Assembly: GCF_026626705.1 (NCBI RefSeq)
Contig: NZ_JAPNKC010000001.1
Coordinates: 2,542,001 to 2,606,000 of the forward strand
Direction of reading: 5' to 3'
Source: Pyxidicoccus sp. MSG2
GTDB taxonomy: Bacteria; Myxococcota; Myxococcia; Myxococcales; Myxococcaceae
DNA: 64,000 bases
Positions within the stretch are counted from its first letter, which is position 1, and each line of letters opens with the position of its first letter. The translations under genes were made by a program, and so were the position numbers. The notes under the pieces were generated by a model, which saw nothing but the letters and a program-made list of their open reading frames with translations, did no database searches and was not told the origin of the DNA. Shown here in pieces: positions 14,371-27,936 of this stretch.

Positions 14371-15366
14371 CTACATGCGCCAGGCGGGGTCCGCCGCCAG
14401 GCGGAAGTCTCCGCGCAGGCCGCGGCGGTAGGCCTCATACCCCGCCACCGCGATCATCGCCCCATTGTCCGTGCACAACCGCACCGGCGGCAGGAACATG
14501 TTCAGCCCCCGCTCCTCCGCCCGCGCCTTGCACAGCGCGCGCAGGCGCGAGTTGGCCGCCACGCCCCCGCACAGCACCAGGTTCTTGTGGCCCAGCCGGC
14601 GCGCGGCGGCCACCAGCTTCTTCGACAGCACGTCCGCCACCGCCTCCTGGAAGGACGCGCACAGGTCGGACAGGGCCTGCCCTTCCGGCAGGCCGTGCTT
14701 CTGCACGTGGTGCAGCACCGCCGTCTTCAGCCCGGAGAAGGAGACGTCGAAGTTGTCGCCGGGCAGCGCGCGCGGGAAGCGGATGGCCTCCGGGTTCCCC
14801 TTCTGCGCGAGCTGGTCGATGGGCAGCCCACCCGGGTACGGCAGCCCGAGGATGCGCGCCGTCTTGTCGTAGGCCTCGCCGGCCGCGTCGTCGCGGGTGC
14901 TGCCCACCAGCCGGTAGTGGCCGTAGGCCTGCACGTCATAGAGGCTGGTGTGCCCGCCGGACACGACGAGCCCGAGGAATGGCGGCTCCGGAGCCTCCTC
15001 GATGAGGCGGATGGCCAGCAGGTGGCCCTCCAGGTGGTTGGCGCCGACGAAGGGCTTGCCGGTGGCGAGGCTCAGCCCCTTGGCGACCTGCAGGCCCACC
15101 AGCAGCGCGCCGATGAGGCCCGGGCCGGAGGTGACGGCGATGAGGTCCACGTCGTCGAGCGTCTTCTGCGCGCGGGTGAGGGCCTCGTGGATGACGGGCA
15201 TCACCTGGACGATGTGGTTGCGGCTGGCCAGCTCCGGCACCACCCCGCCCCAGCGCCGGTGGATGTCCACCTGGGTGGAGACGACGTCCGACAGCACGCG
15301 CCGGCCGTCCTCCACGAGGGCGGCGGCGGTTTCATCACAGGAGGTTTCCAGTCCGAGGACGAGCAA
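14371..15366 (-). CDS. tsaD: tRNA N6-adenosine threonylcarbamoyltransferase TsaD
   Basis: The 331-aa protein opens LVLGLETSCDETAAALVEDG and has the TsaD ASKHA-fold motifs: the GGVVPELASRNH segment, SGPGLIGALLVG, the metal-binding HLEGHLLA, SGGHTSLYD and LCGGVAANSRLR. TsaD transfers the threonylcarbamoyl group to A37 of ANN-decoding tRNAs, with TsaB/TsaE as partners. The start appears to be TTG at 15364-15366; no ATG fits the conserved N-terminus. It is followed closely by rsmA, so both RNA-modification genes probably share a transcript with the receiver-TPR gene upstream. Confidence 0.95.
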   Translation of the reverse strand: MLVLGLETSCDETAAALVEDGRRVLSDVVSTQVDIHRRWGGVVPELASRNHIVQVMPVIHEALTRAQKTLDDVDLIAVTSGPGLIGALLVGLQVAKGLSLATGKPFVGANHLEGHLLAIRLIEEAPEPPFLGLVVSGGHTSLYDVQAYGHYRLVGSTRDDAAGEAYDKTARILGLPYPGGLPIDQLAQKGNPEAIRFPRALPGDNFDVSFSGLKTAVLHHVQKHGLPEGQALSDLCASFQEAVADVLSKKLVAAARRLGHKNLVLCGGVAANSRLRALCKARAEERGLNMFLPPVRLCTDNGAMIAVAGYEAYRRGLRGDFRLAADPAWRM

Positions 15367-15411: not shown

Positions 15412-18225
15412 TCAGTTGCCCAGGCCCTTGAGCAGCGAGCGGACCTCGTTGGCGGAGGGTCCCGTCGGTTCCAGGAACAAGTATCGCTTGTAGGCCTCGG
15501 CCGCCTGGGAATTCCGCCCGGTGGACTGGTACGCCATGCCGAGCGACAGCCAGGCACGCGCATTCCGGTCCTCCTCCTTGACCACTTCCTGGAGGAGCTT
15601 GGCGGCCTCGCGGTGGGCGGACTGCGCGATGGAGCCGTTCACCAGCGAGATGCCCAGGCCGGCCTTCGCCTCCATGGAGGCCGGCTTGATCGCCAGCGCC
15701 TTGCGGTAGCTGATGGCAGCGGACATGTGCCGGCCACCGACGATGGCCGCCTTCGCCGCCTTCACCAGGCTCGCGTACTCGACCTCCGGGTCCACCGGCG
15801 GCGTGTTGACGACCGGGTCTCCACCCTCGGGCTTCGGAGCCTCCGCGGTGGCTGCCCCGGCATCCTGAGTGGCAGCGGGCGCGGGAGGAGTCACGGCGGC
15901 GGTGGCCGTTCCCGCGTCGACGGTGGCCGTCCCCGCGTCGACGGCGGCCGTCGGCGTGGCGACCTCTGTCGGAGGCGGCGTCGGGTCCTTCTGGGGCTGA
16001 GGCGGCTTCACCGTGTCGACCGGGGTCGGCTGCTCCACCGGAGGCTTCGGCGCGGGCTCCTTCTCCTTCCCACCGGAGCCCGAGCCCCCGCCGACGGCGA
16101 CGACCGCGGCGACGGCGCCGATGAGCAGCGCGCCGACGGCCACGTACAGGCCGGTGCGCTTCGGACGGACGGCCTGGGCCAGCGCGGCGTCGGAGAGGTC
16201 CTCCTTCGACGCGGGGGCGGGCTTCACCTCGGCCGGCTTCGGGGCCGGCGTGGGCTTCGCGTCGACAGGCTTCGTCTCGACGGGTTTCGTCTCGACGGGC
16301 TTCGCTTCCGCGGGCTTCGTCTCGGCGGGCGGCGCGGTGACAGGCGTCGGCACCGCGCTCGGCGTTCGAGGCTCCTCGGCGAGGGCGGGCGCCACCGGCG
16401 CGGGAACGCCGTGGCCCGGGTACGGCGGCAGCGCGAGCTGCTGGGGCGGAGGCGACGGGACCTCCTCGACCTCCAGGACGGACTCGTCGGCCGCGGACAC
16501 CGGTGCCGCCGGCGGCACGTTGGAGCCAGGCTGGGACGGGGCGCCCCTGCCGCTCACCAGCGTCACCTCGGACGACGGAGGAGCCGGCGAGGGCGGCGGC
16601 ACGGGAGGCAGCGGGTTGGGGCCCACGGCGGCGCCGCCGAAGATGGGCGCGCGCGAGGCGGCCGACTCGGCGGCAACGGCGCCCTGGCCGAACGCCGGGG
16701 CCGAGGCGCCCTGGCCACCGGCACTCCCGAAGGTGCGCGGCGAGGGAGACCAGAGCGAGCCCGGCCCCCACGTGGACGCCGAGCTGATGCCGTCGGTGTC
16801 CACGCGGCTCCAGTCCAGCAGGAGGCTGCGGTGCGCCTGCTCCACGGCGCGGTGGGCCGGAGGCGGCTCCACGAGGAAGGCAGAGCCCTCCTCCGCGGGA
16901 GGCAGCGGGGGCGCCGCGGCCGGCTCCTCGGCGACGCCGTTGCGCCGGGGCCTCGCGGGGAAGACGACGACGTTGGCCGGCTGGGCCGGGCCCGTCGCGG
17001 CGGGCGCGAACGAAGCCTCGTCCTCCACGCCCGCGGGCGGCGAGAGCACGCTATGCGGCATCGTGCGCGGCGCGACCGGGACCTCCACGGGCGCGACGGC
17101 CACGGGAACGCTGGGGACTTCCACGGGCGCGACGGCCACCGGGACGCTGGGAGGCGGCTCGGGAGCCACGGGCGGCGGCTCGGGAGCCACGGGCGCGGGC
17201 TCCACCGGAGCGCTCGGAAGCGGGGCCGCGTTGAGCCACTGCTCGATGCCGGGCTTGCTGCTCTGCACCGGCTCCAGCGGGGCGTTGCCCAGCTCGCGGA
17301 TGAGTCCCTCGAAGTACAGCTTGCTGATGATGCCCAGCGCGGCGAGGTCCTCGAAGTCCGAGTCCTCCACCACGCGGCTCAGGGTGCGCTTGCCGTCGAA
17401 CAGGCGCAGCAGCCCGTTCACCTCGTCCGGAATCTCCGAGAGCCGGTCGGCGAGCTGGTGGTAGTCGATCTCGAACACCGTCTCGAGCGGCGGCAGCTGC
17501 TCGAGCATGCGCCCCCACTCGTCCAGGCGGCGCATGCCCTCCATCAGCAGGCCCTGGGTGGAGATTTCGATGCGCTCCGGGCGGTCCAGCGCGCTGAACT
17601 GCACCTCGAACTGGCCCTCGAAGGTGTTGAGCATGCGGTAGAAGGCGTTCTCGCCCTTCAGCCGCCCCAGCTCCGCGTCGATGACCCGTCCGTCCTTGAA
17701 GTAGACGGTGCCGGTGCGCTCACCCTGGATGTTGATGAGGCCCGTCTTGCGGCCAATCTCGAACGTCTGCACCAGGTCCACCACGCCCATGTCGGCGAGG
17801 CTGCCGGCGAAGCCGCCCTTCGTCGTCTCCCGCTTCTCGATCCTCTCCTTCTCCGCCTTCTGGAGGATCATCTTCACGCGGGTGACGATCTCTTTGATGT
17901 AGATCGGCTTGGTCAGATAGTCGTCGCCACCGAGCTCGAGGCCGCGCACCTTGAACTCGACCGACTTCTGGTTCGTCAGGAAGACGTACGGGATGAACTT
18001 GAAGCGCTCGTCGGACTTGAGCGCCTTGCACAGCTCGAAGCCGTCCATCTCCGGCATCTTCGTGTCGGCCAGCACGAGGTCCGGTGGGCTGATCTGGACC
18101 TTCTCCAGCGCATCCTTGCCGTGGATGGCCGTCGTCACGGAGAAGCCAGCCTTCTTGAGGCTGACCTCCATCACGCGGAGGCTCTTTGCGTCACCATCGA
18201 CCAGGAGCAGGTGCTGCTTGGCCAC
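15412..18225 (-). CDS. Receiver-DUF4388-TPR transmembrane signalling protein
   Basis: The 937-aa protein starts with an intact CheY-like receiver (about 4-120; Asp10/Asp12, phospho-acceptor Asp54 in [11 protein letters not shown], Thr84, Lys106). A DUF4388/PATAN-type region follows (about 134-320, with [17 protein letters not shown]). A long Pro/Ala linker with KPVETKPVE repeats runs to about 690, then one TM helix (about 690-712), another linker, and a TPR domain (about 810-937). The topology implies a cytoplasmic phospho-switch and a periplasmic TPR. No kinase gene is adjacent. It is the same domain theme as the giant gene upstream, which also has N-terminal DUF4388 and C-terminal TPR. Function unknown; a polarity or motility role is only a guess. 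Confidence 0.85.
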
Positions 18226-18440: not shown

Positions 18441-21400
18441 TCAGCGGAAGAAGCCGCCTTTCTTCGGCGGGTTCTTCTTGCGCATCTCGATGAGGCGCAG
18501 CTCCTGGTTGGCTTCCAGGTGCTTGGAGTTGGAGCGCACCGCATCGCGGAAGTGGCGCTCGGCGCGGTCCATGTCGCCCTCGACGCGGGCGATGACGCCG
18601 AGCTGGTAATGGGCGCGGTCGCAGTTGGGGTCGGTGCGCACGGCGTCCGCCATCATCTGCTTGGCCTTGGCCATGTCCGCCTTGCGCGCCGGGTCCATGT
18701 AGATGGCCCAGGCACGGGCAGCGAGGTACACGGGCTTCGCGTCCATCGAGTAGGCGCGCTCGTAGTGGTCCGACGCGGTGGTGAAGTCCCGCTTGCGGAA
18801 GAAGACCTCGCCCATCTTGTAGAGGTCGTCCGGGCTGCTGTCGGGGCGCCCCGCGGCGCGAGCGGCCGGACTGGCGGGCGTGGGCGACGGCGTGGGCGCC
18901 TTCGGCAGGGCCTGCTGGGACTGGAGGGTCTGCTGGTACGCCTTGCGCCGGGCGTCGTCGTAGAGGACCTCGTAGGCCTCGCGGATGGCCTCGAAGACGG
19001 CGGTCATCTTCGGCGCCAGGTGGGGAATCGTCGGCGGCAGCCGGTCCGGGTGGTAGACCTTGGCGAGGCTGAGGAACGCCGTCTTCACCTGGTCTCGCGA
19101 GGCGTCCTGCGGGACGCCGAGCACGAAGAAGTGGTCCCGCTTCGCCTGGATGTCGGCGTAGCGCTGCTCGATGTGCTGGGCGAGCCGCGCCTCGTCCGGC
19201 TTGGGAGGCTCGGCGGAGGCGGCGGGGGTGGGAGCAGCCTGGGAGGGCTCGCTCGTGGGTGTCGCACCCACCGGGGCGGCAGGGCGCGCGCCGAGCACGC
19301 CCATGTTCTCCATCGCACGGCGCAGCAGGCGCTGGCGCCGGAGCTTCGCTGCCTCGTCGGGGTTGGAGGGGTCTGCCGCCACGTCGTCCTCGTCGAAGTC
19401 CCAGTCGTCCAGGTCTCCGGACGGCTCGGCCCATGCAGTCTGTCCAGTTGCCCCGGTGTTGTCACCGGGGAAGGTCCCCGGATCCAGAGGTGTCTCCGGT
19501 TCGATCGTCGCTTCAACAATGCCCTCCACGGGGGGCTCGTTGAAATCGACGCTCGCCTGATTGACATCCGAGCGGACGAGCGATTCCAGGTGCGAGTCCA
19601 CCTGCATGAGGGCCGCCTCGAAGGAGGCCGTGAGGGTGGCGGCGCCCTCGTCCTTGTCGAAGGCGACGATGCGCCACAGGTCCTCCTCCCCCGCCTTGGG
19701 CGAGGCAGGCCCCAGCCGGAGCGGCGGCGGCGCGGAACTGGGCGCCGGACGGGTCGCCCACAGGCTGTCGTCCGCCGTGGACGAAGTTTCCGCCGTGAGC
19801 GGGAGCGAAGGGGTGGGCGTGAGGACGGGAGGCGCGCCCCGGGGCGAGGCGCCGCGAGCGGAAGGCGGTGCGTCGGACGGCGTCAGGACCGGAGGCCCGG
19901 CGGCGGCGGGGGCCCGGGCCGGAGGCGCGGGCAGCGGGTCGGAGGCGGGAACGGCGTCGTCCCAGAGCTCGGGTTCGACCTCCAGCAGGGGCAGGTCCTC
20001 CGCCTCCGCCGGGGTGGACTGGGAGGACTCGCGTGCCTGCCACGGCTCGTCCTGCACGGGGACGAGGTCCTTCGTGCGAGTGGGCGGAGTGGTGCGGGGA
20101 GGCTCTTCGGCGAGCCAGGGCTCCAGCGGCTGCCTCTGCGAGCGGCGGAGCGCCTCTTCCATGTCCTGAAGGAGCGCGGCCTGGGCGAGCTGGCGGGCGA
20201 TGCGAAGGGTGTCGGGGCTCTCGGGCTGGGTGGGGAGCTCCAGGGAGGCGACGGCGGACGGCGGGACGGCCTCCGCCCACGAGTCGGCGGCGGAGGCCTT
20301 CGGGGGCTCGGGGTCGGTGGAGATGATGTCACCGACGTCGAGGGTGAGGGCGTCGGCGTCATCCGGGGTGGGCGCGGAGGAGAGCTGCTGGGACTGGCGG
20401 GCCTCGTCGGCGAGGCGGGCTGCCTCGGCGATGCGAGCCTCTTCGGCGATGCGAGCCTCTTCGGCGAGCCGGGCCTCCTCCTGCCGACGCTCCTCTTCGA
20501 GACGGGCCTCTTCCGCAAGCCGGGCCTGCTCAGCGAGACGCGCCTCCTTCGCGCGACGGACCGCTTCAGCGCGGCGACGCTCCACCTCGAGCCGAACCTC
20601 CTCGGCATGGCGGGCTTCCTCGGCGAGCCGGGCCTCTTCCGCGAGGCGGGCTTCCTCGGCACGACGCGCCTCTTCGGCACGGGCTTCTTCAGCGAGCCGG
20701 GCCTCTTCAGCGAGCCGGGCCTCTTCAGCGAGCCGGGCCTCTTCAGCGAGCCGGACTTCCTCGGCGCGACGCGCCTCTTCGGCCCGGGCTTCTTCCGCGA
20801 GCTGGGCCTCTTCAGCGACACGGGCTTCTTCAGCGAGCCGGGCCTCTTCAGCGACGCGGGCTTCTTCAGCGACACGTGCTTCTTCAGCGAGCCGGGCCTC
20901 TTCAGCGAGCCGGGCCTCTTCAGCGACGCGGGCTTCTTCAGCGACACGTGCTTCTTCAGCGAGCCGGGCCTCTTCAGCGAGCCGGGCCTCTTCAGCGAGC
21001 CGGGCCTCTTCAGCGACGCGGGCTTCTTCAGCGACACGTGCTTCTTCAGCGAGCCGGGCCTCTTCAGCGAGCCGGGCTTCTTCAGCGAGCCGGGCTTCTT
21101 CAGCGAGCCGGGCCGCTTCAGCGACGCGGGCTTCTTCAGCGAGCCGGGCCTCTTCAGCGACGCGTGCTTCTTCAGCGACGCGTGCTTCTTCAGCGAGCCG
21201 GGCCGCTTCAGCAAGCCGCGCCTCTTCGGCGATGCGTGCCTCTTCGGCTCGACGTGCTTCCTCAGCGAGGCGAGCCGCCTCTTCGGCGCGACGTGTTTCT
21301 TCGGCTAGCCGAGCCTCTTCGGCGATGCGAACCTCTTCGGCTCGACGTGCTTCATCGGCGAGGCGAGCTTCTTCAGCAAGCCGCGCCTCTTCGGCGATGC

Positions 21401-23975
21401 GTGCCTCTTCAGCGAGGCGCGCCTCCTCAAGCCGAGCCTCTTCAGCCCGTTGAGCCTCCTCCGCGAGCCGAGCCTCCTCCGCGAGCCGACGCTCTTCCTC
21501 CAGTCGCTCCTCTTCGGCGAGTCGGGCCTCCTCTGCGATGCGAGCCTCTTCGGCTCGACGCGCCTCTTCCGCGAGCCGGTTCTCTTCAGCGAGGCGCAGC
21601 TCTTCCGCTATGCGGGCCTCCTCAGCGAGTCGGGCCGCTTCAGCGACACGTGCCTCTTCCGCGAGACGCGCCTCTTCAGCCCTGAGCGCTTCGTCGGCCA
21701 GGCGTCGCTCTTCCGCGAGGCGAGCCTCTTCAGCCCTGCGCGCATCTTCTTCGCGCCGGACCTCTTCGGCGCGACGTGCCTCCTCCGCGAGGCGCGCTTC
21801 CTCCGCCAGGCGGGCTTCTTCAGCAAGGCGACGCTCTTCTTCGAGGCGGGCTTCTTCCGCCAGGCGAGCCTCTTCCGCGAGGCGGGCTTCTTCCGCACGC
21901 CGCGCCACTTCAGCGAGACGCGCTTCCTCTGCACGGCGCGCCTCTTCTTCCGCGAGGCGAGCCTCCTCCATCAATCGCGCTTCTTCGGCGAGGCGCAGCT
22001 CTTCCTCTGCGATCTTGCGACGCACCTCCTCGGCTCGGCGCGCCTCCTCCGCGAGCCTCAACTCCTCTTGGAGTCGAGCCTCCTCTTCAATCCTTCGCTG
22101 TTCTGCAACCCGGGCCTCTTCAGCAAGTCGCGCCTTCTCCAGCCGCGCCTCTTCGGCGAGCCGGGCCTCTTCCGCTAGACGACGCTCCTCTTCGAGGCGA
22201 GCCTCTTCCGCGAGGCGGGCTGCTTCCGCAAGACGGCGCTCCTCCTCCTGACGCGCCTCTTCCGCGAGTCTCAGTTCCTCCGCGCGACGGGCTTCTGCTT
22301 CAAGACGGCGCTGTTCAGCAACGCGTGCCTCTTCGGCAAGGCGAGCTTCTTCAGCGAGGCGGGCCTCTTCAGCGATGCGAGCCGCCTCTTCGGCACGACG
22401 TGCTTCTTCGGCCAGCCGAGCCTCTTCAGCTATGCGGGCTTCTTCAGCGAGTCGGGCCGCTTCTTCAGCCCGACGTGCTTCCTCAGCGAGACGTGCTTCC
22501 TCAGCGAGACGAGCTTCTTCAGCCAGCCGCGCCTCTTCAGCGAGACGCGCCTCTTCAGCCTGCCGAGCCTCCTCAGCGAGACGCGCCTCTTCAGCCTGCC
22601 GAGCCTCCTCAGCGAGACGCGCCTCTTCAGCCAGCCGCGCCTCTTCAGCGAGTCTGCGCTCCTCTTCAAGGCGCGCCTCTTCAGCAAGGCGCCGTTCCTC
22701 TTCGAGACGGGCTTCTTCCGCCTTCCGACGCTCCTCCGCGGCGCGCCGCTCCTCTTCTTCGGCACGGAGTCGAGCCTCCTCCGCGAGGCGGCGCTCCTCA
22801 GCGAGCCGAGCCGCTTCAGCGAGCCGGGCTTCTTCAGCCAGTCGAGCAGCCTCTTCGGCCTGGCGCCGCGCCTCTTCGAGTCGGGCCGCTTCGTCGGCGC
22901 GACGGCGCTCTTCCTCGAGCCGTGCCTCCTCGGCAAGCCGAGCCTCTTCCTCTGCTCGGATCCGCTCGGCTTCGCGTCTTGCAGCCTCCGCAAGGCGGGC
23001 TTCCTCCTCGACTCTGCGGCGCTCCTCTTCGCGACGGGCCTCCTCGGCCAGACGCGCCTCTTCGGCGAGCCGAGCCTCTTCAGCCCTGCGGCGCTCCTCT
23101 TCGAGCCGGGCTTCTTCAGCCAGACGCGCTGCTTCAGCCAGACGACGCTCTTCCTCGAGCCGAGCCGCTTCCGCCAGCCGCGCCTCTTCCGCGAGGCGGG
23201 CTTCCTCGGCCAACCGTGCTTCCTCAGCCCGGCGACGAGCCTCCTCCTCCGCGATACGGCGCGCCTCTTCCTCCGCCCTCCGCCGAGCCTCCTCCTCAAC
23301 CCGACGCCGAGCCTCCTCCTCCGCCTCACGCCGTGCCTGTTCCCGCGCCTCCCACTCCTCCACCGACAGCGCCTGGATGCACCCCTCGCGCTCCAGCACG
23401 AGCAGCAGTGCCTCCTGCGCGGCCGTCAGCCCTTCCGGCTGCCGGAACGCCCCCAGCGTCTCCAGGAACTCGCGCTCCGCCGCATCCGTGAGCCACGGTG
23501 CACACTTCGCCACGTCCTCACAGCGAAACACCCTCGCAACCCGGCTCCCGCCGACGGGCGCCTCCAGCGCCGCGCGCACCACCCGCGCACCCGCAATGGG
23601 CCGGAAGTCCTCCTCCACCGCCCCGGGCTCGAACGCCGCGCGCTCGGCCAGCTCGCTCAGCCTCCGCACGTGGGCGAGCACCTGCTGCTCCACCACCGCG
23701 TCCGGCTCCAGGCCGTACTCCTCCAGCAACTCCTCGTCCGGCGTCCCCGCCCCACCCCGCGCCCACAGCGCGTCCAGCGCCTCCGCGCCCAGCATCCCGC
23801 TCTGGAGGAGCGCCTGCGCCGGGCTCTGGTAGCCGAACCCCAACTGCGTGCCCACGAGGTTCCCCTCGCGCAACAGCAACCGCGACTCACGCCCTCCCGC
23901 GGAAAGCGTCAGCCTCCCGGTGGCTCGGGTCTTGTGGGCGGAGTACAGCGCTTCGGCGGCCTGCGACGGGGTCAT
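18441..23975 (-). CDS. Giant DUF4388 / helical-rod / J-domain / TPR protein (1844 aa)
   Basis: The domains run in this order. An N-terminal DUF4388/PATAN-type domain (about 15-200, ATGRLTLSAGGRESRLLLREG) comes first. A rod of about 990 residues (about 205-1195) built of six-residue units close to RLAEEA follows. Next is a Pro/Ser/Thr-rich acidic linker (about 1200-1600), a J domain (about 1608-1685, HFFVLGVPQDASRDQVK and the HPD motif in YHPDRLPP), and TPR repeats to the end. The J domain should stimulate DnaK-type ATPases. There is no signal peptide, so the protein is probably cytoplasmic. The gene follows trmL by 34 bp and precedes the receiver-DUF4388-TPR gene, a likely functional partner. 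Its role is unknown. The repeat is open in many frames, but only this frame has recognisable flanking domains. Confidence 0.85.
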   Translation of the reverse strand: MTPSQAAEALYSAHKTRATGRLTLSAGGRESRLLLREGNLVGTQLGFGYQSPAQALLQSGMLGAEALDALWARGGAGTPDEELLEEYGLEPDAVVEQQVLAHVRRLSELAERAAFEPGAVEEDFRPIAGARVVRAALEAPVGGSRVARVFRCEDVAKCAPWLTDAAEREFLETLGAFRQPEGLTAAQEALLLVLEREGCIQALSVEEWEAREQARREAEEEARRRVEEEARRRAEEEARRIAEEEARRRAEEARLAEEARLAEEARLAEAARLEEERRLAEAARLAEEARLEEERRRAEEARLAEEARLAEEARREEERRRVEEEARLAEAARREAERIRAEEEARLAEEARLEEERRRADEAARLEEARRQAEEAARLAEEARLAEAARLAEERRLAEEARLRAEEEERRAAEERRKAEEARLEEERRLAEEARLEEERRLAEEARLAEEARLAEEARQAEEARLAEEARQAEEARLAEEARLAEEARLAEEARLAEEARRAEEAARLAEEARIAEEARLAEEARRAEEAARIAEEARLAEEARLAEEARVAEQRRLEAEARRAEELRLAEEARQEEERRLAEAARLAEEARLEEERRLAEEARLAEEARLEKARLAEEARVAEQRRIEEEARLQEELRLAEEARRAEEVRRKIAEEELRLAEEARLMEEARLAEEEARRAEEARLAEVARRAEEARLAEEARLAEEARLEEERRLAEEARLAEEARLAEEARRAEEVRREEDARRAEEARLAEERRLADEALRAEEARLAEEARVAEAARLAEEARIAEELRLAEENRLAEEARRAEEARIAEEARLAEEERLEEERRLAEEARLAEEAQRAEEARLEEARLAEEARIAEEARLAEEARLADEARRAEEVRIAEEARLAEETRRAEEAARLAEEARRAEEARIAEEARLAEAARLAEEARVAEEARVAEEARLAEEARVAEAARLAEEARLAEEARLAEEARLAEEARVAEEARVAEEARLAEEARLAEEARLAEEARVAEEARVAEEARLAEEARLAEEARVAEEARVAEEARLAEEARVAEEAQLAEEARAEEARRAEEVRLAEEARLAEEARLAEEARLAEEARAEEARRAEEARLAEEARLAEEARHAEEVRLEVERRRAEAVRRAKEARLAEQARLAEEARLEEERRQEEARLAEEARIAEEARIAEAARLADEARQSQQLSSAPTPDDADALTLDVGDIISTDPEPPKASAADSWAEAVPPSAVASLELPTQPESPDTLRIARQLAQAALLQDMEEALRRSQRQPLEPWLAEEPPRTTPPTRTKDLVPVQDEPWQARESSQSTPAEAEDLPLLEVEPELWDDAVPASDPLPAPPARAPAAAGPPVLTPSDAPPSARGASPRGAPPVLTPTPSLPLTAETSSTADDSLWATRPAPSSAPPPLRLGPASPKAGEEDLWRIVAFDKDEGAATLTASFEAALMQVDSHLESLVRSDVNQASVDFNEPPVEGIVEATIEPETPLDPGTFPGDNTGATGQTAWAEPSGDLDDWDFDEDDVAADPSNPDEAAKLRRQRLLRRAMENMGVLGARPAAPVGATPTSEPSQAAPTPAASAEPPKPDEARLAQHIEQRYADIQAKRDHFFVLGVPQDASRDQVKTAFLSLAKVYHPDRLPPTIPHLAPKMTAVFEAIREAYEVLYDDARRKAYQQTLQSQQALPKAPTPSPTPASPAARAAGRPDSSPDDLYKMGEVFFRKRDFTTASDHYERAYSMDAKPVYLAARAWAIYMDPARKADMAKAKQMMADAVRTDPNCDRAHYQLGVIARVEGDMDRAERHFRDAVRSNSKHLEANQELRLIEMRKKNPPKKGGFFR
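20390..23360 (-). repeat. About 3 kb of 18-bp coding tandem repeats (RLAEEA rod)
   Basis: The basic unit is 18 bp and codes for six residues near R-L-A-E-E-A. Between about 20,690 and 21,210 the copies are nearly identical at DNA level and show a higher-order pattern, in which blocks mixing LAEEAR and VAEEAR units recur at least three times between about 20,830 and 21,060. Towards 23,360 the units become degenerate. The gradient suggests recent expansion at the 3' half of the rod. No unique spacers separate the units, so it is not a CRISPR array. Confidence 0.92.
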
Positions 23976-24009: not shown

Positions 24010-24513
24010 TCAACTTGCCGGGGGTGCCTGCCTGCCCGCTCCGCTGAAGGCCACCTGCCTCAAGGCCTCATAGGCCCCGATGCCCACCGCCGTGGACAGG
24101 TTCAGACTCCTCCGCTCCGAGAGCATGGGAATCGTCACCGCCGTCCCCGTGCCCCCTTCCATCACCTCGGGCAACAGGCCTGTAACTTCCGAGCCGAACA
24201 CCAGGTGGTCTCCCTCCTGGAACCGGGCCTCGTACAGGGACGTCTCCGCCCGCGCGGAGAACAGCCACCGCCGGGCGTCCGGGAAGTCGGCCACGTACGC
24301 CGCATAGGTGGGATACAGCTTCAGGAACACCTTGTCCCAGTAGTCCAGCCCCGCCCGCTTCAGGTGCTTGTCGTCGATGGAGAAGCCCAGCGGCTCCACG
24401 AGGATGAGGCGGCAGCCCGTCACCGCGCACAGGCGGGCGACGTTGCCCGTGTTGGGCGGAATCTGGGGGGACACCAGGACCAGGTGCAGCGGACGCGCCA
24501 GGGGTTCGAGCAT
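24010..24513 (-). CDS. trmL: tRNA (cytidine/uridine-34 2'-O)-methyltransferase, TrmL family
   Basis: The 167-aa protein is a minimal SPOUT methyltransferase: an N-terminal LVLVSPQIPPNTGNVARLC segment, LVEPLGFSIDDKHLKRAGLDYW, then the knot region with LVFGSEVTGLLPEV, IPMLSERRSLNLSTAVGI. These match TrmL, which methylates the ribose of the wobble base of tRNA-Leu isoacceptors. Length is typical. It is divergent from the DUF192 gene (17 bp between starts) and lies 34 bp upstream of the giant rod-protein gene, so it may share that transcript. Confidence 0.9.
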   Translation of the reverse strand: MLEPLARPLHLVLVSPQIPPNTGNVARLCAVTGCRLILVEPLGFSIDDKHLKRAGLDYWDKVFLKLYPTYAAYVADFPDARRWLFSARAETSLYEARFQEGDHLVFGSEVTGLLPEVMEGGTGTAVTIPMLSERRSLNLSTAVGIGAYEALRQVAFSGAGRQAPPAS

Positions 24514-25833: not shown

Positions 25834-26865
25834 TCACCGTCCGGTGAGAGGCGCGGGAATCCGGTGCGGGCCCCACGCGAGCACCTCGGACAGCGTCTCG
25901 CCCGCGGCCACCTCGGTCTCCTCGAACACAGCGGCGCGCTGCGCATTCACTCCGTCGCCCAGCTTCGCGCCCACGCCCACGGACACACCCGGGCCCACCG
26001 AGGCCCCAGCCGCCACGGTGGCGCCGCGCCCGATGTACACGGGCCCCTCCACCGACGTCGTGTCCACCTGCGCCTCGGGAGACAGCCACGCGCCCCCGGG
26101 CCCGCGCATCGTGCCGGCCAGCGGCGAGTCCGCGCCCAGCCACTCCAGCCGCACGCGCCCGGCGAGCACGTCCTGCACCGTGGCCAGGTAGCGCGACGGC
26201 GTGCCCAAATCGGACCAGTACCCGTCCACCCGCACGCCGCGCACCGTCTGCCCCGCCTGCATGGCGCGCACGTAGACTTCGCGGTTGATGTCCTCGGGCC
26301 CCTCGGCCGCCATGAAGTCGAAGATGCGGGGGGACATCACGTGCACGCCGGTGAAGTGCCACGGGGAGAGGCCCTCGCCGCCGGGGCCGTGGCCGGCGAT
26401 GCGCCGCACCCGGCCCCCGCCGTCCAACTCCACCGCCGCGTACTTCTCCGCCTCCGGCATGGGCTGAAGCACCATGGTGGCCACCGCGCCGGACGCGCGG
26501 TGCATGGCCACCACGGGTCGCAGGTCCACCGGGTAGAGGATGTCCCCGTTGAACACGAGGAAGTCATCCCCGGAGAGGAAGTCGCGCAGGCCGCGGATGC
26601 CGCCGCCGGTGCCTTGAATCACGGGCTCGTGCACCACGTGCAGCGGCAGCTTCAGGCGCGCGCACTCGGCGCGGGCCACCTCCGCCATGGTGTCCGGCAG
26701 GTGGTGGGTGTTGATGCCCACCGCCGTCACGCCCGCGGCCTTCAGCACCGCCAGGTGGTAGCGCAGCAGCGGCTGCCCGAGGAGCGGCATCGCCGGCTTG
26801 GGCCAGCGCTCGGTGAGCGGACGCAGGCGGGTACCCAGCCCCGCGCAGAGGACCATCGCCTTCAT
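25834..26865 (-). CDS. murU: Sugar-1-phosphate nucleotidyltransferase, MurU-like (MurNAc-1-P uridylyltransferase)
   Basis: The 343-aa protein has an N-terminal nucleotidyltransferase domain (about 1-235): AGLGTRLRPLTERWPKPAMP, FNGDILYPVD, HFTGVHVMSP and YWSDLGTPSRYL. A C-terminal left-handed beta-helix tail follows (about 255-330; VYIGRGATVAAGASVG). It lies 30 bp downstream of an AmgK-type kinase gene, the same pairing as amgK-murU of Pseudomonas. There, recycled MurNAc is phosphorylated and then converted to UDP-MurNAc. The generic NDP-sugar synthase motif would also fit GDP-mannose or NDP-heptose enzymes; the gene pair is what favours MurU. The added beta-helix is longer than in Pseudomonas MurU. 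Confidence 0.75.
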   Translation of the reverse strand: MKAMVLCAGLGTRLRPLTERWPKPAMPLLGQPLLRYHLAVLKAAGVTAVGINTHHLPDTMAEVARAECARLKLPLHVVHEPVIQGTGGGIRGLRDFLSGDDFLVFNGDILYPVDLRPVVAMHRASGAVATMVLQPMPEAEKYAAVELDGGGRVRRIAGHGPGGEGLSPWHFTGVHVMSPRIFDFMAAEGPEDINREVYVRAMQAGQTVRGVRVDGYWSDLGTPSRYLATVQDVLAGRVRLEWLGADSPLAGTMRGPGGAWLSPEAQVDTTSVEGPVYIGRGATVAAGASVGPGVSVGVGAKLGDGVNAQRAAVFEETEVAAGETLSEVLAWGPHRIPAPLTGR

Positions 26866-26895: not shown

Positions 26896-27936
26896 CTAGG
26901 CGGCCAGCTCGGGGACGTACTTCGCCACCAGCTCCTGCAGCTTGCGCAGCTCCGGCTTCCGCGCGAAGGCGTCACGCACGTAGCGCAGCGACGCGGGGAT
27001 GGACACCAGGAAGCCCGGGTTGCCCTTCACGCGGTTGATGAACTCGAAGCGGCCCGCGTCCTTCAGCTTGCGCTGGATGGTGAGCAGGTCGAAGAAGGAC
27101 TTGAACGCCGCCGCGTCGATGGCCTCGCCGCTCGCCTCTTTGAACGTCGCGATGTAGCGGTCCAGCATCTTGTCGACGAAGGTGCGGTCCAGCTCCACGT
27201 AGCTGTCGCGCAGCAGGGCCACCAGGTCGTACTGGCGCGGGCCCTGGAGGGCGTCCTGGAAGTCGATGACGACCAGCTCGCCCTCCTTCACCATGATGTT
27301 GCGGCTCTGGTAGTCGCGGTGCGTGAAGCCGCGCGGCGCGGCGGCCAGCTGCTTCGCGATGTCGCGGAAGGTGCGGTCCAGCTCGGCGCGCTCGGCGGCG
27401 GTGGGCTGTTTGCCGCTCCACGCCTCCAGGCCCCACTCGCGGAAGTGGTGCAGCTCCCAGTCGTACAGGTCCTCGTCGAACGCGCGCGTGAAGGCGAGGC
27501 AGTCCGGGTCCTGGTGCTTCTCCGCCTGAACGCGCAGCCGCGCCAGCAGGTCCACCGCGCGGGTGTAGAGCGCTTCGTTGTGCTTGCCGCCCTCGAGCGC
27601 GGACTCGAAGGTGATGTCGCTCAGGTCCTCCAGGACCATCATCCCCGCCGGCTCGTCGTAGCGGAGGATGCGCGGCACGCGCACGCCCAGCTTCTCCAGG
27701 TAGCGGTGCACGTTGACGAAGGGCAGCTCCTTCGGAGGCTCACCCTTGGTGGCCTCCTCGCTCTTCTTCGTCGCGTCCGGCGGCATCACCATCACCACCC
27801 AGCTGTCGGGCGCCGCGCCAACGCGGTAGTACGAGCGGTTGCTCGCGTCGCCCTTCAGCTTCTTGATGGCGGCGTGGGGAACGGGACGGCCGACGGCCTG
27901 TCCCACCTGGTCGCGCAGGGCGGCCTCGAGTTCCAT
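26896..27936 (-). CDS. amgK: Aminoglycoside-phosphotransferase-fold sugar kinase, AmgK-like
   Basis: The 346-aa protein has the APH/choline-kinase fold: KLKGDASNRSYYRVG at the N-terminus (the family's nucleotide loop), PRILRYDE and VLEDLSD. The catalytic loop is THRDYQSRNIMV (HxD..xN, about 210-221) and the metal site is VVIDFQDALQGPRQYD. AmgK enzymes phosphorylate MurNAc and GlcNAc at the anomeric position for peptidoglycan recycling that bypasses MurQ. Assignment rests on the QDALQGP-type motif and the adjacent MurU-like gene. Start codon ATG at 27934-27936. It is divergent from the cystathionine beta-synthase gene. Confidence 0.78.
   Translation of the reverse strand: MELEAALRDQVGQAVGRPVPHAAIKKLKGDASNRSYYRVGAAPDSWVVMVMPPDATKKSEEATKGEPPKELPFVNVHRYLEKLGVRVPRILRYDEPAGMMVLEDLSDITFESALEGGKHNEALYTRAVDLLARLRVQAEKHQDPDCLAFTRAFDEDLYDWELHHFREWGLEAWSGKQPTAAERAELDRTFRDIAKQLAAAPRGFTHRDYQSRNIMVKEGELVVIDFQDALQGPRQYDLVALLRDSYVELDRTFVDKMLDRYIATFKEASGEAIDAAAFKSFFDLLTIQRKLKDAGRFEFINRVKGNPGFLVSIPASLRYVRDAFARKPELRKLQELVAKYVPELAA

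Follow-up and report, generated by a model that had tools for sequence, protein, structure and literature searches.

The window analysed here, a 64,000-nt stretch of the Pyxidicoccus sp. MSG2 genome (contig NZ_JAPNKC010000001.1, positions 2,542,001 to 2,606,000 of the forward strand), encodes on its minus strand a J-protein of 1844 amino acids (aa) with a giant helical stretch of six-residue period, an observation first made from the letters alone and now confirmed. This stretch, called the rod below, is very probably a single alpha-helix (SAH) that tethers an N-terminal head to a C-terminal part made of a J domain and tetratricopeptide repeats (TPRs), and on balance the whole seems best explained as a cytoplasmic class C J-protein acting as a tethered co-chaperone. 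The original prediction, whose interpretation is partly supported, gave the right coordinates and length and left the strand unsaid; its rod, residues 205-1195, lies close to the longest stretch free of Pro, Gly, Trp, Phe, Tyr and Cys (residues 209-1201, 993 aa). The layout it proposed, DUF4388-rod-J-TPR, holds for the rod, for the J domain with its HPD motif and, on the C-terminal piece, for the TPRs, while DUF4388, which we take to be the PATAN domain of the literature, stays below threshold in this protein. Along the chain the head (aa 1-204) is followed by the rod (209-1201), a linker (1202 to about 1596), the J domain (1614-1680) and the TPRs (about 1715-1834), encoded as follows:

18441..23975, minus strand: whole J-protein gene, an open frame of 1844 aa plus stop, with ATG at 23975
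23364..23975, minus strand: head, aa 1-204, divergent DUF4388/PATAN (Pfam DUF4388 E 0.003 when scanned alone, under the cut-off)
20373..23351, minus strand: rod, aa 209-1201, hexad-repeat helix, predicted single alpha-helix (sequence statistics and AlphaFold2)
20133..20216, minus strand: linker helix 1, aa 1254-1281 (AlphaFold2 helix and conserved alignment columns)
19536..19688, minus strand: linker motif A, aa 1430-1480, LWRI...SFEAAL...VDSHLE (regular expression and AlphaFold2 helix 1444-1472)
19299..19340, minus strand: linker motif B, aa 1546-1559, RRQRLLRRAMENMG (strict regular expression and helix in the AlphaFold2 model)
18936..19136, minus strand: J domain, aa 1614-1680, HPD at 1642-1644 (Pfam DnaJ)
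18474..18833, minus strand: TPR region, aa 1715-1834 (Pfam TPR on the C-terminal piece and model helices)

The 993 residues of the rod include 326 Glu, 285 Ala (29%), 213 Arg, 102 Leu (10%) and 4 Lys, and no Pro, Gly, Trp, Phe, Tyr or Cys at all. The net charge is -114, evenly spread over the three thirds (-34, -41 and -39). The hexamer RLAEEA occurs exactly 61 times, and the six-residue period that had been read from it is unmistakable: the autocorrelation of Leu, Ile, Val and Met at lag 6 is 0.594 versus -0.002 +/- 0.032 in 1000 shuffles (z 18.6; 19.6 for Arg/Lys and 21.8 for Glu/Asp), and their Fourier power is 14.6 at 6 residues versus 0.7, 0.3 and 0.6 at 3.5, 3.6 and 3.67. The underlying DNA is an 18-bp tandem array of about 127 copies. 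On the plus strand the open reading frames across the rod (929, 571, 485 aa and others) are regarded as mere shadows of this repeat, and matches of the rod to Plasmodium_HRP, LbH, YdcK, LpxA/LpxD and similar models were rejected as low-complexity hexad matches.

The charged residues are arranged as expected for an SAH. Attractive charge pairs outnumber repulsive ones by 379 to 7 at i+3 (z 23.1) and by 231 to 22 at i+4 (z 12.6), so that the proposed Arg-Glu pairing is overwhelming, whereas the coiled-coil arm of an SMC protein from the same genome gives 30/16 and 30/15 (z 1.9 and 2.1); the pairing score is our own measure and not the Waggawagga program. The helix-angle hydrophobic moment of the rod falls below that of shuffles (z -5.8, window 28), as the claim of no continuous Leu stripe implied, compared with z +5.5 and +6.0 in two SMC coiled-coil arms. 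The power at 3.5 and 3.67 residues is low, as given above, and register runs are short (median 19 residues); a hydrophobic pattern of heptads or hendecads in stable register is not seen. High charge, attractive i+3 and i+4 pairs, absence of Pro and Gly and lack of a hydrophobic stripe are shared with known SAH domains (PMC5378345). Such domains, found in myosins, caldesmon and other proteins, average about 75 aa, with the longest, in myosins, near 200 (PMC5378345); the rod differs in its 993 aa and in using Arg with almost no Lys. For the rod, AlphaFold2 was run on two pieces only, with shallow alignments of 12 and 9 rows, and returned an unbroken helix over residues 205-329 (predicted local distance difference test, pLDDT, in blocks mostly 90-95) and another over 902-1192 (mostly 79-88, falling to about 50 at 1041-1060); being monomer predictions, these models cannot exclude oligomers.

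The single helix of the original prediction is therefore backed both by an SAH-type signature and by a modelled helix in each piece, while its stiffness is not. The contour length computes to 149 nm, in line with the roughly 150 nm proposed. The persistence length of SAHs is 15-30 nm, and on that value the contour equals 5-10 persistence lengths, with a root-mean-square end-to-end distance of 63-85 nm. Because of this ratio, the rod should be a semiflexible tether rather than a stiff strut, although its net charge may stiffen it. The suggested likeness to TolA did not hold: TolA has an N-terminal membrane anchor and a periplasmic rod, whereas hydropathy over 19 residues peaks at 0.82 in the J-protein, which has no transmembrane segment and should, on that evidence, be cytoplasmic.

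For comparison among relatives, the bacterial family of the window is called f1, and f2, f4, f7 and f9 are other families of the phylum. Matches to the head were found in 110 of 145 genomes of the class (E <= 1e-3, weak matches included) and matches to the J-TPR part in 96 of 195 genomes of the phylum (E <= 1e-30). Fifty of the 52 loci fetched had a head match, giving 51 frames with that of the window; L062 and L075 are the same record, one being a duplicate. Closed frames with HPD number 42 of 51 and span 594 to 2197 aa. Forty closed frames hold a rod, counted as a helical stretch of at least 40 aa, with a median of 910 aa and at least 400 aa in 38 of the 40; the longest rod of all, 1337 aa in L053, lies in a frame cut by a contig end. 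In the assemblies that are fragmented, repeats may have been put together wrongly; loci from genomes in a single contig (e.g. L063-L068, L070, L074, L076-L078) have the same layout. In f1 the layout DUF4388-rod-J-TPR is conserved and syntenic, and the hydrophobic moment is negative in all 39 other f1 rods longer than 150 aa. In L087 and L095 the period is eight and not six; attractive pairing persists in L087 (215/7 at i+4), and judged from these sequences it seems to be charge pairing rather than the hexad that is kept. An orthologue is present in Myxococcus xanthus strain AM003 (L056). The locus is also shared by L054, a record titled Comamonas sp. KCTC 72670, which clusters with Myxococcus xanthus in the J-TPR tree and is probably a misnamed myxobacterium.

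Outside f1 the rod may be absent or replaced. Rodless relatives occur in f2 (L096, L097, L098, L102 and L116) and f4 (L113 and L117), and the longest helical segment in all seven is 12-33 aa; four of the f2 proteins (L096, L098, L102 and L116, longest segments 19-29 aa) stand at the shared locus, with REC-DUF4388 (REC, receiver) and TsaD genes nearby as in the window. Most of the rodless proteins resemble the window protein in their J-TPR alignment and in linker motif B or a variant of it and lack the rod. By Pfam, L096 (594 aa; L097 has 616 aa) has DUF4388 and J as in the window layout; no TPR was called in its full-length protein at E <= 0.01, and its C-terminal piece matches TPR_2. Because f2 and f4 have the protein without it, the rod is, on sequence comparison, a variable insert in a DUF4388-J-TPR protein. 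Helical stretches in f7 are neutral in moment (-0.3 and -0.2) and paired mainly at i+4; in L112 of this family an i+4-paired helical stretch occupies aa 1-197 of the frame in place of a hexad rod. In the J-TPR tree f1 forms a group of weak support (70/70), and deep support is too weak to order f1, f2, f4, f7 and f9, so that the tree does not establish one common origin for the helical insert. Of the f1 members in this tree, the three with the shortest inserts, L088, L119 and L094, cluster (83/85).

DUF4388 was not detected by Pfam in the full-length protein at E <= 0.01, and the isolated head matches DUF4388 (PF14332) with E 0.003 and 18.0 bits, under the curated cut-off of 25 bits. At E <= 1, however, 28 of 29 aligned head sequences match, that of the window included. 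In a rescan of six relatives, L096 (47.2 bits), L097 (56.2) and L084 (25.7) exceeded the cut-off and L056, L087 and L092 stayed under it; L096 and L097, which lie well over it, encode rodless f2 proteins. Profile comparison linked the head only weakly to DUF4388 copies encoded in the same genome (hhalign probability 6.8 and 7.7%). From these matches we take the DUF4388 of the head to be real and very divergent.

In the AlphaFold2 model the linker appears largely disordered (block pLDDT mostly 30-45), apart from three longer helices. The regular expression for motif A is matched in 31 of the 51 proteins, equal to 31 of the 42 closed with HPD, and the strict one for motif B (RRQRLLRRAMENMG) in 33 of 51, or 33 of 42, with rodless L096 among them; variants of motif B, judged by eye, occur in f9, f7, f4 and f2. 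Motif B is kept in the linker from rodded to rodless families, and the genome of the window holds a single further match (E 7.3). A Leu core flanked by Arg is typical of DnaK-binding peptides, and the resemblance of motif B to such peptides may serve as a lead only. The J-TPR part is strongly conserved among the aligned C-termini. Pfam DnaJ matches aa 1614-1680 with E 1.7e-13 and 50.9 bits (cut-off 27.8), and all 24 aligned C-termini have the HPD motif. The DnaJ class A/B model TIGR02349 gives 50.4 bits against a cut-off of 377.2, matching only positions 1-68 of 354; with DnaJ models matched in the J part only, the protein would be a specialised J-protein of class C type. TPRs stay under the cut-offs in a Pfam scan of the full-length protein. 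On the C-terminal piece alone TPR_2 reaches 33.7 bits (cut-off 27), all 24 C-terminal pieces match it at E <= 0.01, and the region is modelled as helices with pLDDT mostly above 90.

The J-protein gene is one of a set of neighbours in constant order, TrmL - J protein - REC-DUF4388-TM-TPR (TM, transmembrane segment) - TsaD:

24010..24513, minus strand: TrmL-like SpoU methylase gene, upstream (Pfam SpoU; TrmL model 147 bits, cut-off 190.6)
15412..18225, minus strand: neighbour of 937 aa, receiver-DUF4388-Pro-rich linker-one transmembrane segment-TPR (Pfam; transmembrane hydropathy 2.62 over 19 residues)
14371..15366, minus strand: TsaD gene, downstream (Pfam)

The TrmL-like gene ends 34 nt before the start codon of the J-protein gene and was found in 49 of the 50 loci, being missing in L096. 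Nine of the 50 loci have no J-TPR match. Among the 41 with the J-TPR end, the REC-DUF4388 gene comes next, in the same orientation, in 40; the exception is L097, which has it some 1.6 kb upstream on the opposite strand. TsaD follows in 38 of the 40, with no TsaD match in L088 and L092. The best-matching segment of the REC-DUF4388-TM-TPR protein is 73-99% identical across f1 loci, often above TsaD. Genes for a MurU-like nucleotidyltransferase and an AmgK-like kinase stand side by side at 25834-26865 and 26896-27936, minus strand, below the NCBIfam cut-offs; their order upstream of TrmL is kept in many loci, and the pair suggests peptidoglycan recycling. No sigma-70-like site was found, and terminator-like sites are rarer than in shuffles (2 versus 5.2).

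The original prediction knew of no described protein with this layout. None was found in the searches made of an open-licence library; rodless DUF4388-J-TPR proteins in other families and DUF4388-J paralogues in the same genome qualify it. What is new here is the extreme SAH-type insert, the DUF4388-J-TPR kind of protein itself being known from the rodless relatives. The same-genome paralogue L042 (627 aa) has REC (41.8 bits) and, all three over the Pfam cut-off, DUF4388 (56.4), DnaJ with HPD (28.7) and TPR_14 (24.8); it is like the window protein in DUF4388, J and TPR and differs in its receiver in front, lack of a rod and separate locus. The name RtdA, presumably that of a DnaJ-like response regulator of M. 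xanthus, was not confirmed in the literature search. A second paralogue, L040, likewise has DUF4388, J and TPR. Another paralogue, L044 (G000:C1 3067018-3070380), lies in an open frame some 1900-2000 codons long; it has a helical EAEARA-type stretch, then DUF4388, which falls slightly short of the cut-off, and a J domain that scores 34.3 bits and lacks HPD. L041 (515 aa), with DUF4388, a weak BLAST match to J-TPR, no HPD and no Pfam J match, is possibly a degenerate J protein. TopJ, a large scaffold protein with a J domain from the terminal organelle of Mycoplasma, a polar motility organelle, was also considered. Its models NF037946 and TIGR03835 match the J domain only (42.2 of 300 and 35.5 of 512.25 bits); with both equivalog cut-offs unreached, TopJ identity was rejected.

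J proteins direct Hsp70 to clients, and their address lies in their other domains. We lean towards a specialised Hsp40 co-chaperone on a tether, whose address would lie in the DUF4388 head and in the TPRs. The head may bind a partner that sits at a fixed site, perhaps by way of the neighbouring REC-DUF4388 protein or else, like cyanobacterial PATAN domains, by docking on a motor ATPase. As a monomeric, semiflexible tether, the rod would let J and TPRs sweep tens of nanometres from the dock; the TPRs may hold the client or DnaK, and the J domain would trigger ATP hydrolysis by DnaK at that site. By analogy, the protein would most likely help to assemble or reverse a polar machine, for example the type IV pilus motor. 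PilB, the ATPase of that motor, is bound in Synechocystis by PATAN regulators (PMC12288463, PMC10519157), the PATAN response regulators at the cyanobacterial type IV pilus motor being PixG and PixE, and TPR-containing DnaJ3 acts there with DnaK1 and GrpE (PMC12288463, PMC9239167). PATAN, J and TPR thus sit on separate proteins without a rod at that motor, whereas the window protein would carry them on one chain. In M. xanthus, S-motility is reduced when the Hsp70 SglK is deleted (PMC8265645), StkA affects exopolysaccharide and S-motility (PMC4319316), and the PATAN proteins MXAN_3211 and MXAN_4965, one of which might correspond to the J-protein gene, co-occur with the pilus activator SgmX (PMC11580455). 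Because of these reports a polar motility client is plausible by analogy; a link to the type IV pilus or to polarity, argued in that way alone, stays doubtful.

Several observations weigh against this account as a whole. COILS, in our own implementation of its matrix, formally calls a coiled coil (P > 0.5) across 99% of the rod, the outcome named beforehand as refuting; the figure is 96% for a shuffled rod and 99% for a synthetic (EEEERRRR)n, and its verdict is therefore uninformative here and was rejected as sole evidence for a coiled coil. Predicted template modelling scores of both rod models are low (0.35 and 0.26), and so is the confidence of the AlphaFold2 head (block pLDDT 34-74). Closed rods span 62-1269 aa and cannot be an exact ruler, and in four of the 39 f1 rods (L086, L090, L092 and L094) the moment stays within |z| < 2. 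The f9 orthologue L110, in a frame open at its 5' end, has an 827-aa helical stretch (aa 140-966) that is coiled-coil-like (moment z +6.6) and is followed downstream by the same REC-DUF4388 and TsaD genes; a single-chain helix is therefore not essential family-wide. Recognisable conserved neighbours resemble tRNA-modification and peptidoglycan-recycling genes and not motility genes, and none of the eight neighbouring genes compared matched an Hsp70 model. PilB occurs in 144 of 145 genomes, including those in which no orthologue turned up, and its co-occurrence is for that reason uninformative. Experimental work on the J-protein was not found in the open-licence literature searched.

The rod could instead be an ordinary parallel coiled coil that dimerises the protein, its hexad a low-complexity variant, much as the large coiled coil of FrzS is used for polar localisation (PMC11580455). 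The COILS call and the f9 orthologue would fit, but the controls score alike, register runs in the rod have a median of 19 residues versus 30 and 50 in SMC, the periods of 3.5 and 3.67 carry no power and the moment falls below shuffles; we regard this as quite unlikely. A bundle or cytoskeletal filament of straight helices packed side by side through three Leu stripes is very unlikely. The geometry would allow it, steps of 6 x 100 degrees placing Leu on three faces at 120 degrees from each other, one every 18 residues on each, and the Leu and Ala contents would suit it; the evenly spread negative charge should nevertheless oppose bundling, and octad rods would lose the stripes. A stronger case, although still an unlikely one, is expansion at the DNA level by slippage of the 18-bp unit in a tolerant linker with little selected function. 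The tandem array speaks for it, as do the broad length range, the absence of the rod in f2 and f4 and a rapid turnover: in six species pairs, colinear exact matches of at least 24 nt cover 3-31% of the rod, whereas they cover 50-90% in the head and 22-81% in the region that follows the rod, with every chain offset a multiple of three and hence in frame. Yet 91 RxAEEA units, chosen by their protein pattern, have 64 distinct DNA versions, and codons six apart, compared with no selection of pairs or units, are near saturation at synonymous sites (proportion of differences 0.66) but not at amino-acid sites (0.23), where codons five or seven apart differ at 59 and 55%. The total lack of Pro and Gly and the length of nearly all closed rods also stand against slippage alone, and the charge pattern is retained where the period differs. 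As DNA, the rod repeats are old, yet they are still constrained to a pattern in the protein, and we conclude that a physical property is conserved in the rod rather than its sequence. dN/dS-like values between species were dropped as evidence of selection in favour of the codon comparison at lag 6, as units are not aligned one-to-one and the alignment favours amino-acid identity.

Function may also be more ordinary than the tethered, addressed co-chaperone that we favour. A general stress co-chaperone without a specific address, its long helix merely shielding or spacing, would agree with the strong conservation of J and TPRs and with the character of the neighbouring genes. The match of DnaJ models in the J part only speaks against it, and the dedicated DUF4388 head and constant REC-DUF4388 neighbour suggest an address; we consider this explanation improbable.

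As a tentative possibility, the protein could be an Hsp40 mounted on one of the longest SAHs known (about 1000 residues, and about 1340 in a relative), a tether of fast-evolving sequence and preserved charge pattern whose DUF4388 head sits at a polar machine and which lets Hsp70 act over tens of nanometres, while sister lineages use a coiled coil or no rod. If monomeric, the rod helix would exceed several-fold the length of the SAH domains of PMC5378345, and its relatives would offer a natural length series (62-1269 aa) for polymer physics in vivo. The orthologue in Myxococcus xanthus AM003 should make the idea testable in a standard laboratory organism. If the proposal is true, these bacteria would have added both address and reach to a J protein, joining PATAN and J-TPR on one chain.

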